Source: Ahniella affigens (lineage in GTDB: Bacteria > Pseudomonadota > Gammaproteobacteria > Xanthomonadales > Ahniellaceae). From it: a DNA stretch of 64,000 nucleotides. Shown piece by piece: positions 54,900 through 61,097 of the stretch. How positions within the stretch are numbered: position 1 is the stretch's first letter; each line of letters begins with the position of its first letter. The translations under genes and the position numbers were made by a program. The notes under the pieces were generated by a model that was given only the letters and a program-made list of their open reading frames with translations, ran no database searches and was not told where the DNA came from. The DNA is taken from NCBI RefSeq assembly GCF_003015185.1, contig NZ_CP027860.1, positions 1,488,001 through 1,552,000 on the forward strand. The letters run 5' to 3'.

Positions 54900-55664
54900 A
54901 TGTGGAATCGACTGTTGAATGTCTTCAAGGGCATGTTCGCCATGTTCGTGCGCGATGTGGAGAAGAAAAATCCGGAGGCCTTGCTGGAGCTGGAGCAGGA
55001 AAACCTGAGAAAGCAGATCAGCAGCTACAACAGCGGCCTGGCGACCCATGCGGGCTTGGCCGAGCGGCTGATGAGTCAAGTGCGCAAGCTCGAAACGGAA
55101 GAGAAAGAGCTGCGAGCTAAGACCACGGCTCACCTTCGCGCCGGCAATAAGCAGGCGGCCGGCCAATACGCGCTGCGTCTACAGACGATTACCCGCGAGC
55201 TCGCCGAGAACCGCACCCAGCTCGAACAGGCCGAGGCCACGTATCAGAACCTGGTCAAGGCGCGCGATGTGGCGGTTAACGCCGCGCGGGCCAAGATCGA
55301 GAGCCTGAAGGGTGCGATCAACGACATGCGCATGAAGTCGGCAATGGCCGAGATGAACGAGATGGCCGCCGGCATGATCGGCAACATCGGTGGCTCCGGC
55401 GACACGCTGAACCGGCTGCATGAAATGGTGGAAGAAGAACGCACCAAGGCTGCCGGGCGTGCTCGGGTGGCGCGAGATGCAATCGACATGACCGAGGTCA
55501 ACCTCAAGGAAGCCGAAATGACCGCGTTGGCCGATCAGGCGCTCGCTGATTTTGCCGCCGCCGAGGGCCTGTCGGTTGAGTCCGAAGACGCCGCAGCGGC
55601 ACCAGCTGCGCCGGCGCGCAACATGGGCAAGTCGGCATCCGAATCTGAGTCGTCTGCCAGCTAA
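54900..55664 (+). CDS. pspA: PspA/IM30 (ESCRT-III superfamily) protein
   Basis: The protein has 254 residues from ATG 54900 (GGGAGCGGCC upstream). The N-terminal helix MWNRLLNVFKGMFAMFV should be amphipathic and bind membrane. Long coiled coils follow (ALLELEQENLRKQISSYNSGL, ERLMSQVRKLETEEKELRAK, LAENRTQLEQAEATYQNLVKA). The C-terminal part is Ala/Glu/Ser-rich. This fits the bacterial ESCRT-III members that form rods on damaged inner membrane. The usual PspBC regulators and PspF are absent. Instead a AAA+ ATPase starts 3 nt after the stop, echoing the ESCRT-III/Vps4 pairing. Confidence 0.9.
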   Translation: MWNRLLNVFKGMFAMFVRDVEKKNPEALLELEQENLRKQISSYNSGLATHAGLAERLMSQVRKLETEEKELRAKTTAHLRAGNKQAAGQYALRLQTITRELAENRTQLEQAEATYQNLVKARDVAVNAARAKIESLKGAINDMRMKSAMAEMNEMAAGMIGNIGGSGDTLNRLHEMVEEERTKAAGRARVARDAIDMTEVNLKEAEMTALADQALADFAAAEGLSVESEDAAAAPAAPARNMGKSASESESSAS

Positions 55665-55667
55665 GCC

Positions 55668-57323
55668 ATGCCACTAGACCCGAACGCCCCAGAGTGGGCG
55701 AAGCAACTGGCGCTGGCCTACGAGAGTGGCGCCAGCGGTGTGTTTGCGCTGGCCGGAAATGTGGCTGACCGCTTTCCGCGGCACGGCCGGCTGTTGGGGC
55801 TGGTCGATTACCTCGATGCCGAGTTGCTGTCGGCATTTCCCGAGGTGTTCGTCTACGATCCGGGCAATGGGCTCGCAGCGCAGCGCAGTACGGAGCTGTT
55901 TCAGAAATGGCCGGGCGCCAAGCAACTCGGCAGTGATTCGCGTGAACCGCGCATCGCGATTGATCTGATCTCGCGCTATTTGCGCTATCGCGCCAATCTG
56001 GCCAAGTTGGGCCGAGATGCCGCGAACCCCGTGGCGCTGTTGCTGCGAGGCGCCGATCAAGTGCTGCCGGCCGGCCGTCATGGCGAGTTTGAGCTGGCGA
56101 GCCTGGTCAGTCTGGTGCGCGACTGGGCGTCGGAATCACCGTTCACCGAGCTGCCGTTTGCCTGCTTTTTGCTGGCCGACCAACTCTCTGATCTGCATCC
56201 GATGCTGGCGCAGCATCCGCGCGTCAACAAGGTTCGTGTGCCATTGCCCGATGTGCCGGTGATTGAGCAGGCGCTGGCGCAGTTCCGCGTGGACTTTCCG
56301 GCTGCTTTTGCGGTAGATGCCGAACCCGGCGTGGCCGCCCAGCTGGCCGGCGTAAGCGTGAGCGCACTGCAGGCGCAGGTGAAGATGGCGGCGCACGAAA
56401 AGCGGCCGCTGCAGCGCGCCGACTGGGTGCGCGCGAAGAAGCGCCTGATCGAATCCGATGCCAGTGATTTGGTGGAGTTTGTCGAGTCGGGCAAATCGCT
56501 CGATCAGTATCACGCGCAAGAGGCGCTCAAAACGTGGCTGCGTCAGGATATTCAGCTCTGGCATGCAGGCGATCTGAAGGCCATGCCGATGGGCTACATT
56601 TTCTGTGGCCCGGTCGGCACCGGCAAAACGTTTCTGGTGGAATGCCTGGCCGGCGAGGCGGGCGTGCCGGTGCTCAAGCTGAAGAATTTTCGCGATCGCT
56701 GGGTCGGATCGAGCGAAGGCAATCTGGAAAAGATCTTTCGCCTGATCCGAGCATTGGGCCGATGCATCGTGTTTATTGATGAGGCCGACCAGAGCCTCGG
56801 CAAGCGCGATGCGGGCTCGGGCGACAGCGGCCTGTCGGGTCGACTGTATTCGATGCTCGCGCAGGAAATGAGTCAGACCGCGAACCGGGGCAAAGTGCTC
56901 TGGATTCTGGCGTCGTCGCGGCCGGATCTGATCGAGGTGGATTTGAAGCGACCGGGTCGCATCGACGTGAAGATTCCACTTCTGCCAACGAGCACTGTTG
57001 CCGAGAGCGCCGCTTTGCTCTCCGCATTGCTGAAACGTCTTGAGCTCGGCATCGATCCGGCCGCCATGGTGGGGCTCGATCTGCCCGTGCTGCTCACCCC
57101 GGGCGCTGCCGAAGCGCTTGCGGTGAAAATCTATCGGCGCGTGCGCACCAACAACGAAGCGGTCCTGGACGCGTTGAAAGCCAGCCTGGCCGGGTATCAA
57201 CCGCCGGTGCCCATTGATGTGCTGCATCACCAGATGCGCATCGCGATCCGCGAGGCCACCGATCAGCAGTTTGTGCCCGAGGCGTTTCGCTTCCTGGCCG
57301 AATCCGGAGACCGTGCCCCATGA
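55668..57323 (+). CDS. AAA+ ATPase linked to PspA (Vps4/FtsH-like motor)
   Basis: The protein has 551 residues. The C-terminal module has Walker A GPVGTGKT (314-321), a pore-loop-like segment FRDRWVGSSE (341-350), Walker B CIVFIDEADQS (366-376), sensor-1 region WILASSRPDLIEVDLKRPGRIDVKI and an Arg-finger candidate. The N-terminal 290 residues contain GVFALAGNVADRF, ALLLRGADQVLP and FACFLLADQ. They read as a degenerate AAA-like domain lacking Walker A. It probably acts as a hexameric motor remodelling the PspA polymer; that is inferred from operon context. The gene lies between pspA (3-nt gap) and the membrane coiled-coil gene (ATGA overlap). Confidence 0.9.
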   Translation: MPLDPNAPEWAKQLALAYESGASGVFALAGNVADRFPRHGRLLGLVDYLDAELLSAFPEVFVYDPGNGLAAQRSTELFQKWPGAKQLGSDSREPRIAIDLISRYLRYRANLAKLGRDAANPVALLLRGADQVLPAGRHGEFELASLVSLVRDWASESPFTELPFACFLLADQLSDLHPMLAQHPRVNKVRVPLPDVPVIEQALAQFRVDFPAAFAVDAEPGVAAQLAGVSVSALQAQVKMAAHEKRPLQRADWVRAKKRLIESDASDLVEFVESGKSLDQYHAQEALKTWLRQDIQLWHAGDLKAMPMGYIFCGPVGTGKTFLVECLAGEAGVPVLKLKNFRDRWVGSSEGNLEKIFRLIRALGRCIVFIDEADQSLGKRDAGSGDSGLSGRLYSMLAQEMSQTANRGKVLWILASSRPDLIEVDLKRPGRIDVKIPLLPTSTVAESAALLSALLKRLELGIDPAAMVGLDLPVLLTPGAAEALAVKIYRRVRTNNEAVLDALKASLAGYQPPVPIDVLHHQMRIAIREATDQQFVPEAFRFLAESGDRAP

Positions 57324-58168
57324 AGTATTGGTGGGCGGCGTTCAATGCCCGGCCGTTTGGCATGCCGATTCCGCCGAACTGGTTCGGATTGGCAGCATTC
57401 GGCATGCTCGGCGCGTTCATTCATCCCGGACTTTGGCTGATTGGTGCGGGTTTGGAGCTCGCCTATCTGAAATTCCTGTCGGGCGCCGCGCGATTTCGAA
57501 AAACCGTCGATGCCACGTCCGGCAAGGCCGAGACCGAGGTCGATCCGCAGGACACACGTTACGACAACATGCTCGCGGCCTTGAACTTTCGCGATCGGCA
57601 GAAGCACCAGTCCATCGAGGCTATTGCCCGCGACATTCTGAGCACTCTCGAAAAGACGCCGTTGTTCGAAAGCCAGGGCGACAGCGTCGAGCAGCTCGTC
57701 TGGCTGCACCTGCGTTTGCTGAGCGCGCGGGCAGCACTTATTCGAGTCGGCGACAACGCGCGCGTTGAGCGCGATTCGCTGATTCAACAACACCAGAAGC
57801 TCGACCAGCGCTTGCAAGATGAGAGTTTGAGCCCTGAGCTTCGGCGTAGCCTGGAGCAACAGCAACTGGTGATCGGCCAACGCCAGCAGGCGCATGCCGA
57901 TGCCGCCAGACGCCTGGAGCAGGTTGATGCCGAACTCGTGCGCGTCGATCACCAGATGGCATTGATCCGCGAGCAGACCTTGTTGGCGAGCGACGACGGC
58001 AGCGCCGGCGCGTCGCTCAATGCGCTCAGTGCCTCGTTCAACGATACCCAGCGTTGGCTCAGCAGCCAGCGTGATTTGTTTGATGCATTCGAGTCCGGAC
58101 TGGGCCAGAAGCTGCCAAAGCGCGTGCTGGCCCGCCGTTCCAATCCGCAGTCGGAAGGAGAAACCTGA
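57320..58168 (+). CDS. Membrane-anchored coiled-coil protein of the pspA operon
   Basis: The protein has 282 residues. After a short N-terminus, a hydrophobic hairpin (WFGLAAFGMLGAFIHPGLWLIGAGLELAYLKF, residues about 21-52) inserts in the inner membrane. The remaining 230 residues are largely helical. They include RNMLAAL-type helices and a strong coiled coil (LIQQHQKLDQRLQDESL, then QQLVIGQRQQAHADAARRLEQVDAELVRVDHQ). No family is recognised. Its start overlaps the AAA+ stop (ATGA) and its stop overlaps the next start (TGATG). A role as membrane adaptor joining PspA and the ATPase to the periplasmic partner is inferred. Confidence 0.8.
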   Translation: MKYWWAAFNARPFGMPIPPNWFGLAAFGMLGAFIHPGLWLIGAGLELAYLKFLSGAARFRKTVDATSGKAETEVDPQDTRYDNMLAALNFRDRQKHQSIEAIARDILSTLEKTPLFESQGDSVEQLVWLHLRLLSARAALIRVGDNARVERDSLIQQHQKLDQRLQDESLSPELRRSLEQQQLVIGQRQQAHADAARRLEQVDAELVRVDHQMALIREQTLLASDDGSAGASLNALSASFNDTQRWLSSQRDLFDAFESGLGQKLPKRVLARRSNPQSEGET

Positions 58169-59871
58169 TGCAAGCCATGTTCAATCGATCGCACGTCCGC
58201 GGTGGCAGTTCCGGCACCGCCATCACTCTGATTCTGGTGATTGGTCTCCTGGCGCTGGGGGCTTGGCTGATGATGCGCAAGGACACCAGTGCCGAGCAGG
58301 CCAAACAGGTAGGCGCGCAATTTGGCGCTGAGGTGGTGCAGAAGGCGACCGTACCCGACGGCGACGCGCCGACGCCGATCGAGCCGGTAGAAGGTCTTCC
58401 GCAACTCGAAGCCGCGGCAACCTATCAGCCGCAGGGCAATGTGATCGATGTCGATATCAGCGACTATGCCGGCTACGCGGGCCTGGTTGCTGCGAACGGC
58501 GGACTGGCGCCGAATGCTGATTCATTCTTTGCGAAGAACTACGGCTTTCAAGTGCGGCTGACCTTGAGCGAGAGCGAGAGCTGGTCGAAGCTCAACAATG
58601 GCCGGGTCGCTGCGTCCGTCACGACAACGGACGTGCTCGCTGCGCTGGGTCGGCAGTTCGAGGTCGTCGTGCCCGCCCAGATGGCGTTTTCGCGCGGTGC
58701 GGACATGGTAGTGGTCGACTCGGGCATCAGCAGCATCAATCAACTGCAGGGCAAGATTCTCGCCGCGACGCAGTTCAATGAGAGCGATTTCTTTATCCGT
58801 TATCTGGCGTCCGAGGCGAATGTGCCCGTCAAAGTGCTGCGTGATCTGGATGCCGTGCCGGCCAGCAACGAACTCGGCTTGGTGTTCTACGAGGACAACG
58901 ATGTCGCGTGCGACGCCTACGAACATGAACTCAATGCCGGGCATCGCCTGAACGGCTGTATTGGTTGGTCGCCGCGCACGGACGAAGTCATCGAAGCCTC
59001 AGGCGGCAACGCCAAGATGTTGGTGTCGAACCGCAATCTGCTGATCATTGCCGACCTGTTGGTCGTCAACAAAGGCTTTGCGAAGGCGAAGCCAGAGTGG
59101 ACGCTCGGCTTGGTGCATGGCTTGATGGAAGGCAACCGCCGCGTGCGCGACAACCCGGCGAGCGAAGTGCCGGCGATTGCCAAGGCATTTGGATGGACCG
59201 AAGACGAGACGCGCGATGAGTTGTCGAAAGTGCATCTGTCGAATGTGCCCGAGAACCAAGCGTTCTTCAGCGGCACGATCGACGCCGCCGGTTCGTTCAA
59301 CGGCATCTTCCAGAGCTCGGTGCTGTCGTATGGCAAATTGATCAAGAACCCAGCTGATCCAGCGCGGTTTGTCGATCTCGCTTATCTCGATCAGTTGAAG
59401 AAGAAGCCGGAGTTTGCCAGCCAAAGTATTGCGATTGCGCCGATCAAGACCCGCGATGGCGCGTCGCTCGAAGGTGATGCGCTCCTGAGCAAGGACATTC
59501 GCTTCTTCTTTGAACCGAATTCAGCAACGCTGGATCGTGAAGCGACCGAGAATCAAGGCTATCTGGATTCCATCAAGGGTTTCCTGCAAGTCAGCCCCGG
59601 CTCGATCGTCGTGCTGCGTGGTCATGTGGACAACGCCAAGATGGCCGACTTCGAGCGTGAAGGCGGGCAGGCGCTGGTGCGCTCGATGGCGCTGAAGGCG
59701 ATGGAACTCTCGCGGCAACGCTCACAGTCCGTGAAAGACGCGCTGCTGAAAAAGTACCCGAATCTCAGCGCGGATCGCATCGAAGTGGTTGGACGCGGTT
59801 GGGAAGAGCCTGCCGGCAAAGACAGCGATTTGAATCGCCGCGTTGAGGTGCAGTGGTTTACGTTGGAGTGA
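58168..59871 (+). CDS. Solute-binding-protein/OmpA fusion anchored in the inner membrane
   Basis: The protein has 567 residues. One N-terminal membrane helix (AITLILVIGLLALGAWLMM) anchors the rest in the periplasm. Residues about 85-430 resemble an NMT1/SsuA-type type II periplasmic binding protein: VDISDYAGYAGLVAANGGL, NGRVAASVTTTDVLAALG, VVVDSGISSINQLQGKILAA and WTLGLVHGLMEGNRRVRDNP. Residues about 455-565 form an OmpA-like peptidoglycan-binding domain (IRFFFEPNSATLDREATEN, VVLRGHVDNAKMADF, RIEVVGRGWEEPAG, NRRVEVQW). The fusion suggests ligand sensing plus cell-wall attachment. It is the last gene of the operon; no ABC permease or ATPase is adjacent, so classical transport is unlikely. Confidence 0.88.
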   Translation: MQAMFNRSHVRGGSSGTAITLILVIGLLALGAWLMMRKDTSAEQAKQVGAQFGAEVVQKATVPDGDAPTPIEPVEGLPQLEAAATYQPQGNVIDVDISDYAGYAGLVAANGGLAPNADSFFAKNYGFQVRLTLSESESWSKLNNGRVAASVTTTDVLAALGRQFEVVVPAQMAFSRGADMVVVDSGISSINQLQGKILAATQFNESDFFIRYLASEANVPVKVLRDLDAVPASNELGLVFYEDNDVACDAYEHELNAGHRLNGCIGWSPRTDEVIEASGGNAKMLVSNRNLLIIADLLVVNKGFAKAKPEWTLGLVHGLMEGNRRVRDNPASEVPAIAKAFGWTEDETRDELSKVHLSNVPENQAFFSGTIDAAGSFNGIFQSSVLSYGKLIKNPADPARFVDLAYLDQLKKKPEFASQSIAIAPIKTRDGASLEGDALLSKDIRFFFEPNSATLDREATENQGYLDSIKGFLQVSPGSIVVLRGHVDNAKMADFEREGGQALVRSMALKAMELSRQRSQSVKDALLKKYPNLSADRIEVVGRGWEEPAGKDSDLNRRVEVQWFTLE

Positions 59872-59980
59872 GCGGTTTGGCGCTCATCAACCATCGCCCA
59901 GACCATCGTTTTTGTTGTTCCGGCGAAATAGATCGTGTGAATGCGTCGGGGCAGGACGGTATTCGCTGCTTCCACATAGT

Positions 59981-60292
59981 CTCTGTGTGACTGAACGAAC
60001 ATCAATCTCACCCCGGATCAAGTCCGGGGGGACGAAAGGTGGATTGGGATTCCTTTGGGAAATGGCTCCTTTCCAGCGTCTGGAGAGCCGATTTTGCCTC
60101 GATGGACACGCTCGCGATTCGTCGCCCCGGACTTGATCCGGGGCGAGGTTCGGGCCCGCGGCAGGCTGACCAATCGCGCGCTGACCCCCTTTCGTTCTGT
60201 GTCTCTGTGTGACTGAGCGAACATCAAACTCACCCCGGATCAAGTCCGGGGTGACGAGAGGTAGATTGGGAATCCTTGGGAAACTGCTTCTT
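59981..60292. repeat. Three CCCCGG-family palindromes within two extended direct repeats
   Basis: The palindromes are at 60009-60031, 60123-60145 (inverted) and 60231-60253. About 90 bp around the first and third match (59981-60072 and 60201-60292). These share CTCTGTGTGACTGA, GCGAACATCAA or its variant before the palindrome, and GATTGGGA/TTGGGAAA after it. The rest of 59872-60368 holds no gene. Confidence 0.85.
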
Positions 60293-60334
60293 CCTGGTTT
60301 GACGAGCTTGCAATCTAGTCGCTTATTATTTGGC

Positions 60335-60374
60335 GCTCAGACGCTCAGACGCTCAGACGCTCACGCGCTCATTC
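60335..60374. repeat. Octamer tandem repeat GCTCAGAC
   Basis: Three exact copies (60335-60358) and two variants (GCTCACGC, GCTCATTC) run across the stop codon of the minus-strand gene ending at 60369. Confidence 0.8.
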
Positions 60375-60851
60375 GCGCGAATCTGATGCCGCTGCCTCCG
60401 GCTCACCCCGGCCAATCAACGCATCCGACTTGGCATAGGCGTGCTTCAATTCATCGCTCGCCGTATCCAGCTTGCCCAACTGTTCGTTGAGCTTCACGAG
60501 CGAGCATCGGACTTTGTCGCGGACTTGGCGCAGTTGGCTGATTGATGCGGTATGGATGTGATCGCGAATCCACAGACGGTGTTGCAGGATCAGGCGCAAT
60601 GCCTGCTGGACGCCGGCTTCACTGTTCAGCGTATTGCGAGCGCTTTCGGTGATGTCGGCGGGGAGACGGCCGAGCAGGGCTTCGAGGTCGCGCATGCGGA
60701 CGCGGGTTTCGAGCACGCGCGCTTCGAGGGTATCGGCGTCGTCCAGTAATTGGCGGAGAATCGCCTCCCGACGTACGGCTCGCAATCCCATGAACACCAT
60801 ACCGAGCACCAGGACGGTCAGCACAACGATGATGATTAATTCAGTTTTCAT
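60369..60851 (-). CDS. Membrane-anchored coiled-coil protein of unknown function
   Basis: The protein has 160 residues from ATG 60851. An N-terminal membrane helix (LIIIVVLTVLVLGMVFMGL) is followed by a mostly helical cytoplasmic or periplasmic part (AILRQLLDDADTLEARVLETRVRMRDLEALLG, then LRQVRDKVRCSLVKLNEQLG). The tail is charged (GRGEPEAAASDSRE). I do not recognise a family. An octamer tandem repeat begins at its last codons and continues downstream, so the C-terminus may vary between strains. It is divergent from yceD; the starts are 246 bp apart. Confidence 0.65.
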   Translation of the reverse strand: MKTELIIIVVLTVLVLGMVFMGLRAVRREAILRQLLDDADTLEARVLETRVRMRDLEALLGRLPADITESARNTLNSEAGVQQALRLILQHRLWIRDHIHTASISQLRQVRDKVRCSLVKLNEQLGKLDTASDELKHAYAKSDALIGRGEPEAAASDSRE

Positions 60852-61097
60852 GGTGGTTTGGCCCTGTCTGAATGGTCTCGCGCCGGCCACTCCGGAGCGC
60901 ACGGCAAGCCGCCGGATAGGGGTGCCGTGGGCGCCGGACCGGTTGGGCTCGCCGTGCAATCATAGACCGGGCGGGGTGGATTCGCCTGTCGTCGGTGTCG
61001 CAAATCGGGCGGCGGCGCCCGGGATCAGCTGGATCTGAACAGCAAATCAATGATTTGGTTGACGAATCAGCCATACATCCGTACCATGCGCGCCCTT

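Follow-up and report, generated by a model that had tools for sequence, protein, structure and literature searches.

PspA/IM30 proteins represent the bacterial endosomal sorting complex required for transport III (ESCRT-III) superfamily and polymerise on the inner membrane, at its inner leaflet. ESCRT-III subunits carry C-terminal MIT-interacting motifs (MIM), and the MIT domain is the feature of the AAA+ enzyme Vps4 that recruits ESCRT-III. In a 2024 study of PspA rods (PMC11746142), Vps4 served as an analogy only, chaperones or PspF were suggested, and no dedicated disassembly motor was named. The closest described systems are operons encoding PspA, a double-AAA protein and a PBPB/OmpA protein (e.g. 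OGG56892.1), with an ATP-binding cassette (ABC) ATPase and permease as an optional extension and, in some cases, a Snf7 homolog with a transmembrane segment; in the main-text passages of that report (Ravi et al. 2024, mSystems, PMC11237479), ATP-dependent, ESCRT-like remodelling was already proposed and a link with solute transport suggested. Targeted full-text literature searches returned no other paper on this operon and no experimental work. Here we analyse a four-gene operon of this kind, composed of pspA, an AAA+ ATPase gene, a membrane hairpin/coiled-coil gene (gene 3) and a gene fusing a solute-binding protein (SBP) to an OmpA domain (gene 4, SBP-OmpA), which lies in a 64,000-nucleotide stretch, hereafter the window, of the complete Ahniella affigens genome (two contigs, 6.12 Mb; Table 1).

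Judged by those main-text passages, the published operons and the window operon have in common PspA, a two-AAA protein with an inactive N-terminal copy and a solute-/peptidoglycan-binding PBPB/OmpA protein, whereas the window operon differs from the ABC-bearing form in lacking ABC genes and in having a distinct binding domain (type B). Gene 3, with a transmembrane hairpin and a long helical hairpin but no match to PspA profiles, may or may not correspond to the Snf7 homolog described there. Within the published class as its main text presents it, the window operon is a variant, to which the importer-free type, a conserved tag on PspA and a parallel operon in phages add new details; the main-text passages of PMC11237479 contain neither the split into two types nor the PspA tag, the splitting of loci or the phage versions. 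Of the new points, the most valuable are the tag on PspA, the sensor type without an importer and the operon of phages. We put at about even the chances that the operon is a trans-envelope membrane-maintenance unit, in which a Vps4-like motor recycles PspA, gene 3 acts as the anchor and gene 4 as a wall-tethered sensor.

The gene positions, the 3-nt gap between pspA and the AAA+ gene, the ATGA overlap between the AAA+ gene and gene 3 and the one-base TGATG overlap between genes 3 and 4, as reported in a preliminary description of this DNA, were all exact on direct reading, and the four genes are translationally coupled. The AAA family was scanned against 84,980 species genomes, yielding 154 relatives, and 80 loci were kept. 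The order pspA-AAA-gene 3-gene 4 recurred without exception in the 33 gammaproteobacterial loci obtained (30 complete and three cut by contig ends), which span Lysobacterales/Xanthomonadales, Pseudomonas, Atopomonas and others; the 4-nt overlap of AAA and gene 3 was kept in 27 of the 30 complete loci, and the genes flanking the operon vary between lineages. Among 241 sampled Verrucomicrobiota genomes, nine had the AAA, 11 had gene 4 and eight had the two together (Fisher p 6e-12, uncorrected for shared ancestry). A chance neighbourhood of unrelated genes deserves hardly any credence in the face of the 33 consistent loci, the reshuffled complete versions in another phylum and this co-occurrence. 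The four genes are a real, widely conserved functional unit. The distribution of gene 4 across Pseudomonadota is rare and patchy: it was present in 7/10 sampled genomes of the window's own family and at full length in 3/398 sampled Pseudomonadota genomes, and the N-terminal AAA module was found in one of 274 sampled class-mates of the window genome. Carriers of the operon include culturable Pseudomonas, Pseudoxanthomonas and Arenimonas species.

Table 1. Positions of the operon genes, their domains and associated features in the window and in homologous loci (L numbers)
Feature	Source	Position	Strand	Length or residues	Remarks
pspA	window	54900-55664	+	254 aa	PF04012 above cut-off; starts ATG, stops TAA
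PspA C-terminal tag ARNMGK	window	55614-55631	+	residues 239-244	candidate AAA+ docking motif after variable linker
AAA+ ATPase	window	55668-57323	+	551 aa	PF00004 plus fold matches
AAA+ N-terminal module, inactive	window			residues ~3-260	without Walker motifs; matches D1 of p97/NSF
AAA+ C-terminal module, active by motifs	window			residues ~265-551	
Gene 3, membrane hairpin/coiled-coil	window	57320-58168	+	282 aa	AlphaFold 2 model; no family
Gene 4, binding protein/OmpA fusion	window	58168-59871	+	567 aa	PF00691; TIGR01728 partial
Gene 4 inner-membrane anchor	window			residues ~18-36	hydropathy
Gene 4 NMT1/SsuA-like type II binding domain	window			residues ~90-415	type B
Gene 4 OmpA peptidoglycan-binding domain	window			residues 447-558	PF00691, 40.7 vs 27.2 bits
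Palindromic repeat units CACCCCGGATCAAGTCCGGGG	window	59979-60286			three alternating copies, two within 86-nt direct repeat
Short tandem array of 8-nt units (CGCTCAGA)	window	60334-60373			
Orphan protein gene	window	60369-60959	-		between operon and yceD
VWA-domain protein	L174	1229-1966			PF00092
VWA-domain protein	L176	14729-15445			
VWA-domain protein	L177	14387-15103			
Thymidylate-kinase-like gene	L023	8856-9512			
Thymidylate-kinase-like gene	L026	4818-5492			
Open reading frames, SBP/OmpA-like	L163	3755-7942			verrucomicrobial genome
Phage operon	L219	11766-17524			735-kb phage LR756501
Phage operon	L220	11311-18673			Lak phage MK250024
Phage operon	L221-L235				

The AAA+ protein matches PF00004 over residues 311-436 (90.7 bits), and its AlphaFold 2 (AF2) model (predicted local distance difference test score, pLDDT, 84.4) contains two AAA modules. 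The N-terminal module aligned with p97 N-D1 (4kod; Z 13.1, root-mean-square deviation 3.8 over 202 residues), and residues 265-426 aligned with Vps4 (3eih; Z 13.9, deviation 2.5 over 151 residues), with p97 D2 and FtsH about equal. Walker A (GPVGTGKT), Walker B (FIDEAD-type), the pore loop RWVG with W345 and the RPGR arginines R428 and R431 were invariant in 38/38 AAAs across phyla. By its motifs and its model, the protein looks like an active translocating ring joined to a pseudo-AAA receptor module. Two stacked AAA modules with an active second ring are shared with p97/Cdc48, NSF and Drg1, whereas the first module is inactive here and a p97-type N domain is absent. With the ESCRT-III/Vps4 systems of eukaryotes and archaea (CdvB/CdvC), the operon has in common that a gene for a polymer-forming protein is coupled to one for an AAA whose pore loop contains Trp, and that the polymer subunit bears a short C-terminal motif; in contrast, the window AAA+ has the inactive N-terminal AAA module in place of an MIT domain, and its periplasmic arm has no ESCRT counterpart.

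The window PspA, which is the sole one above the family cut-off in the genome, scored 38.6 bits against PF04012 (PspA_IM30; cut-off 33.9 bits) over residues 2-221, and a profile comparison with 11 other PspAs covered 166 columns at E 1.4e-4. The PspAs of the system share a conserved motif, located about 7-18 residues from the C-terminus and preceded by a variable linker. Gammaproteobacterial PspAs have it as R[SN]MG; in others it reads K.MGP or KEM[TA]P, with KELGP in the PspAs of L023 and L026, which are linked to type A (the second form of gene 4, described below), and [RK]QKI[AS]E in L173-L177. Its Met position is occupied by Met in 55 of the 56 system PspAs and by Leu in the remaining one. 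The pattern [RK]x(1,2)M[GTAN] was present in 51/56 (shuffle mean, 1.9), and the stricter [RK]x(1,2)[ML]G in 43/56 compared with 0/24 other gammaproteobacterial PspA/IM30-like open reading frames (ORFs). In analogy to the MIM motifs at the C-terminus of ESCRT-III subunits, we propose that the tag could recruit the AAA+; its sequence is unlike that of MIM motifs.

Gene 3 matched no family in the Pfam and NCBIfam scans and, judged by its sequence, would constitute a new family. Its AF2 model (mean pLDDT 85.6) has two membrane helices (residues 19-33 and 37-55) and, further along, a long hairpin of helices (114-165/172-222), and its steadiest partner is gene 4, to which it is adjacent across phyla. 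The best Foldseek/VIA matches of the model were long-helix proteins (BAR domains, the VirB6 stalk), with Z up to 9.9, which is at chance level for helical models; Vipp1 was matched only at a Foldseek E of 0.9. On the basis of the model, gene 3 is proposed to be a membrane anchor or adaptor.

The fusion in gene 4, for which an annotation artefact had been envisaged at first, is real. PF00691 is matched above its cut-off. The binding domain matched the SsuA family TIGR01728 at 6e-7, partially and below the cut-off, and the distant type A relatives of gene 4 exceed the NMT1/THI5 cut-off. In the OmpA domain, D488 and R518 are invariant in the alignments and kept in both types; this Asp/Arg pair presumably binds peptidoglycan, as in known OmpA-peptidoglycan structures. 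Type A carries the motif N[VI]W.GWAPI (e.g. NVWAGWAPI) and resembles NMT1 and urea/taurine binding proteins; of 15 bacterial loci examined, 12 have a TauC-like permease and a TauB-like ATPase next to it. Type B, to which the window protein belongs, carries S[EK]Y.GYAG (SEYAGYAGL) and had ABC genes alongside in no case; the window protein is 48-56% identical to those of other phyla and about 22% identical to type A. Because type B is ABC-free in every case, yet keeps 48-56% identity across phyla, the importer-free form is best read as old and maintained and not as a local gene loss. Gene 4 has its binding domain in common with the Tau/Ssu/SsuA-NMT1 importers, and type A loci also their permease and ATPase, whereas gene 4 is OmpA-fused and membrane-anchored, and type B has no importer.

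The window genome gave seven matches to binding-protein-dependent (BPD) permeases, all within operons of molybdate, phosphate, polyamine and sulfate type, and none was TauC/SsuC-like. Since all seven sit in these other operon types, gene 4 has no possible TauC/SsuC-type permease partner, and the idea that such an ABC partner is encoded away from the operon is ruled out. The earlier statement that the binding protein lacks a transporter partner is thus true of type B and of the window genome, but in the sister type A loci genes for an ABC permease and ATPase are present. The complete TauBC/SsuBC-like pair beside type A, the strongly conserved binding-lobe residues of both types and the solute transport link suggested in the main text of Ravi et al. 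(PMC11237479) would all suit a system with solute uptake or lipid/solute handling at its core, in which gene 4 delivers the ligand, PspA and the AAA are accessory membrane stabilisers and the importer of type B has been lost or exchanged. This appears rather unlikely, given that type B, kept across three phyla, never stands beside an ABC pair and that no permease of this kind is encoded in the window genome.

Outside gammaproteobacteria, Verrucomicrobiota and Phycisphaerae contain the same parts in other orders or at two loci. The order gene 4-permease-ATPase-gene 3-pspA-AAA was found in L099, L113 and L114, gene 4-permease-ATPase-gene 3(-pspA) in L158 and L159, and pspA-gene 4-gene 3-AAA in L173 and L175, the latter with an additional 64-aa ORF. 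L174 and L177 are arranged as VWA-pspA-gene 4-permease-ATPase-gene 3-AAA, and L176 likewise with one extra small gene. In L155-L157, L162 and L164, the gene 4-gene 3 pair lies at one locus and pspA-AAA or the AAA at another; AAA and gene 4 are unlinked in three of the eight Verrucomicrobiota genomes having both, and in each of the six order-mates that have a type A SBP-OmpA, the AAA is likewise present, unlinked. The sensor type and the presence of ABC genes change together among L173-L177, as if the sensor had been exchanged on one chassis. The PspA-like proteins of these five loci are divergent and below the reach of Pfam; they match the profile of the system PspAs (E 5e-8, 94.8% probability). 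A VWA-domain protein precedes pspA in the three ABC-bearing divergent loci and may be an extra component of them. In two order-mates, a thymidylate-kinase-like gene lies directly beyond SBP-OmpA, after pspA and SBP-OmpA. In L163, a smaller ORF is flanked by two divergent SBP/OmpA-like ORFs, a possible third sensor family.

Alternatively, the AAA+ could be an extraction or quality-control unfoldase that acts on membrane proteins and not mainly on PspA, kept at the membrane by PspA and gene 3 and protecting SBP-OmpA and the type A importer. The D1-D2 layout resembling p97/Drg1, the AAAs without an adjacent pspA in many Verrucomicrobiota and the large membrane complex encoded by type A loci speak for such a function, which nevertheless seems somewhat unlikely, as pspA and AAA are tightly adjacent in all gammaproteobacterial loci and the C-terminal tag is specific to the system PspAs.

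The operon shares PspA with the enterobacterial Psp system (PspF-A-B-C), which has the PspF activator where the window operon has a classical AAA. PspB, PspC and PspF had been taken to be absent. PspC (PF04024) had zero matches across the complete genome, and no sigma-54 site (TGGCAC-N5-TTGC, up to two mismatches) lies between ybbN and pspA, which upholds that part, while PspB and PspF were not searched for. A signalling module, in which ligand or wall stress at gene 4 is passed on by gene 3 so that PspA is set free, comparable to the role of PspBC in enterobacteria, and the AAA resets the system, would be in line with the lack of PspC, with a single PspA above the cut-off and with genes 3 and 4 as a membrane-spanning pair. 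Nevertheless, the conserved block includes no transcription factor and no sigma-54 site is found 5' of pspA, and we regard this role as quite improbable.

A parallel operon occurs in large phages. Distant SBP-OmpA proteins were detected by tblastn in Lak megaphages and one 735-kb phage, and viral contigs of 54-513 kb contained 16 loci with an SBP-OmpA homologue; the type B SBP-OmpA of the window was found in none of the viral contigs, which carry just the phages' own distant version (PHROG 25518, a function-unknown entry). Most of these loci are ordered coiled-coil 1, transmembrane/coiled-coil 2, SBP-OmpA, permease and ATPase. In profile comparisons, coiled-coil 1 had no match to PspA; coiled-coil 2 aligned by hhalign with both system and canonical PspAs (51% probability, E 1.5e-4), and its membrane part with gene 3 (43% probability, E 2.5e-4). 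If these matches are right, coiled-coil 2 would be a natural fusion of gene-3-like and PspA-like functions. Such a fusion of a membrane part with a PspA-like coil would lend weak, indirect support to gene 3 acting with PspA as its anchor. The phage operon reads as a candidate phage-encoded envelope or 'phage shock' module.

In the trans-envelope membrane-maintenance unit that we favour, the PspA polymer would form at the inner leaflet of the inner membrane, and the AAA+ ring would be recruited to the C-terminal tag of PspA via the inactive N-terminal AAA module. The ring, whose pore is lined with Trp, would then thread subunits of PspA through this pore, and the polymer could thus be recycled or reshaped, as by Vps4 with ESCRT-III. 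Gene 3 may anchor the PspA/AAA assembly through its membrane hairpin and cytoplasmic coiled-coil and connect it to gene 4, which, seated in the inner membrane, would grip peptidoglycan by its OmpA domain and read a ligand or the envelope state by its binding domain. Type B would be a sensor or tether without transport; in type A, an ABC importer would be joined to that same chassis. Gene order, coupling, co-occurrence, the motor motifs, the inactive N-terminal module, the PspA tag and the parallel between gene 4 type and ABC genes are observed, and from there we infer docking, PspA as the substrate, gene 3 as the adaptor and sensing. A more far-reaching proposal, which we hold tentatively and with some doubt, is a dedicated bacterial Vps4-equivalent for PspA, whose inactive-ring AAA+ docks on the tag and drives turnover under trans-envelope gating by a binding protein tethered to the wall, with the sensor swappable between importer-coupled and importer-free forms and with phages carrying a fused anchor/PspA-like coil.

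Several observations weigh against the favoured unit. No MIT domain was met in the Pfam scan of the AAA+, whose residues 3-260 can be aligned to the D1 modules of AAA proteins; because this domain is absent, the protein is, on its sequence, to be placed outside the Vps4 family, and its sensor 1 is Ser/Thr and not the classical Asn. The Vps4-like partnership of the preliminary description accordingly keeps the active-translocase motifs and the PspA tag in its favour, but not an MIT domain. The window PspA is divergent, a profile search from it finding no PspA in the PDB, and the tag could instead bind a partner other than the AAA; the putative use of PspA as a substrate is argued from linkage and the tag. 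Gene 3 as a hidden ESCRT-III/PspA protein is rejected, hhalign against system and canonical PspAs giving just 0.2-0.6% probability, and structure searches assigned no fold to it. Furthermore, 17 of 30 AAA-bearing Verrucomicrobiota/Planctomycetota genomes, many of them incomplete metagenome-assembled genomes, had no SBP-OmpA match at 1e-20, and several AAA loci have no adjacent pspA. Because of these genomes and loci, the full set of four cannot be a general requirement, and the pspA-AAA pair looks like the core, with genes 3 and 4 as an often-added arm. The 'complete device' described earlier is therefore a unit of four genes, but only one configuration of a modular system, in which many verrucomicrobial pspA-AAA pairs have no detectable SBP-OmpA.

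The operon offers a compact candidate for a motor that disassembles PspA/Vipp1 polymers, with a precise candidate docking motif and in bacteria that can be cultured. One gene block would join inner-membrane remodelling to a peptidoglycan-bound sensor, a direct link between ESCRT-III-like machinery and the cell wall.

Other roles and neighbours of the operon were also considered. As an anti-phage defence system it is rejected, since PADLOC yielded just weak AAA-domain cross-matches to IetA. Carriage by mobile elements is likewise rejected: no plasmid record held a close AAA homologue, the best being Bacillales ATPases at 25-27% identity. The gene ybbN is divergent from the operon, as first described, but it is no conserved neighbour and is ruled out as a member of the unit, no homologue lying near any of the 80 loci. 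Beyond the 3' end of the operon, the orphan protein encoded on the opposite strand has an N-terminal hydrophobic stretch, a likely coiled-coil and no Pfam family. A short tandem array also lies on this side of the operon, and the palindromic repeats downstream of the operon could mark the end of its transcript.

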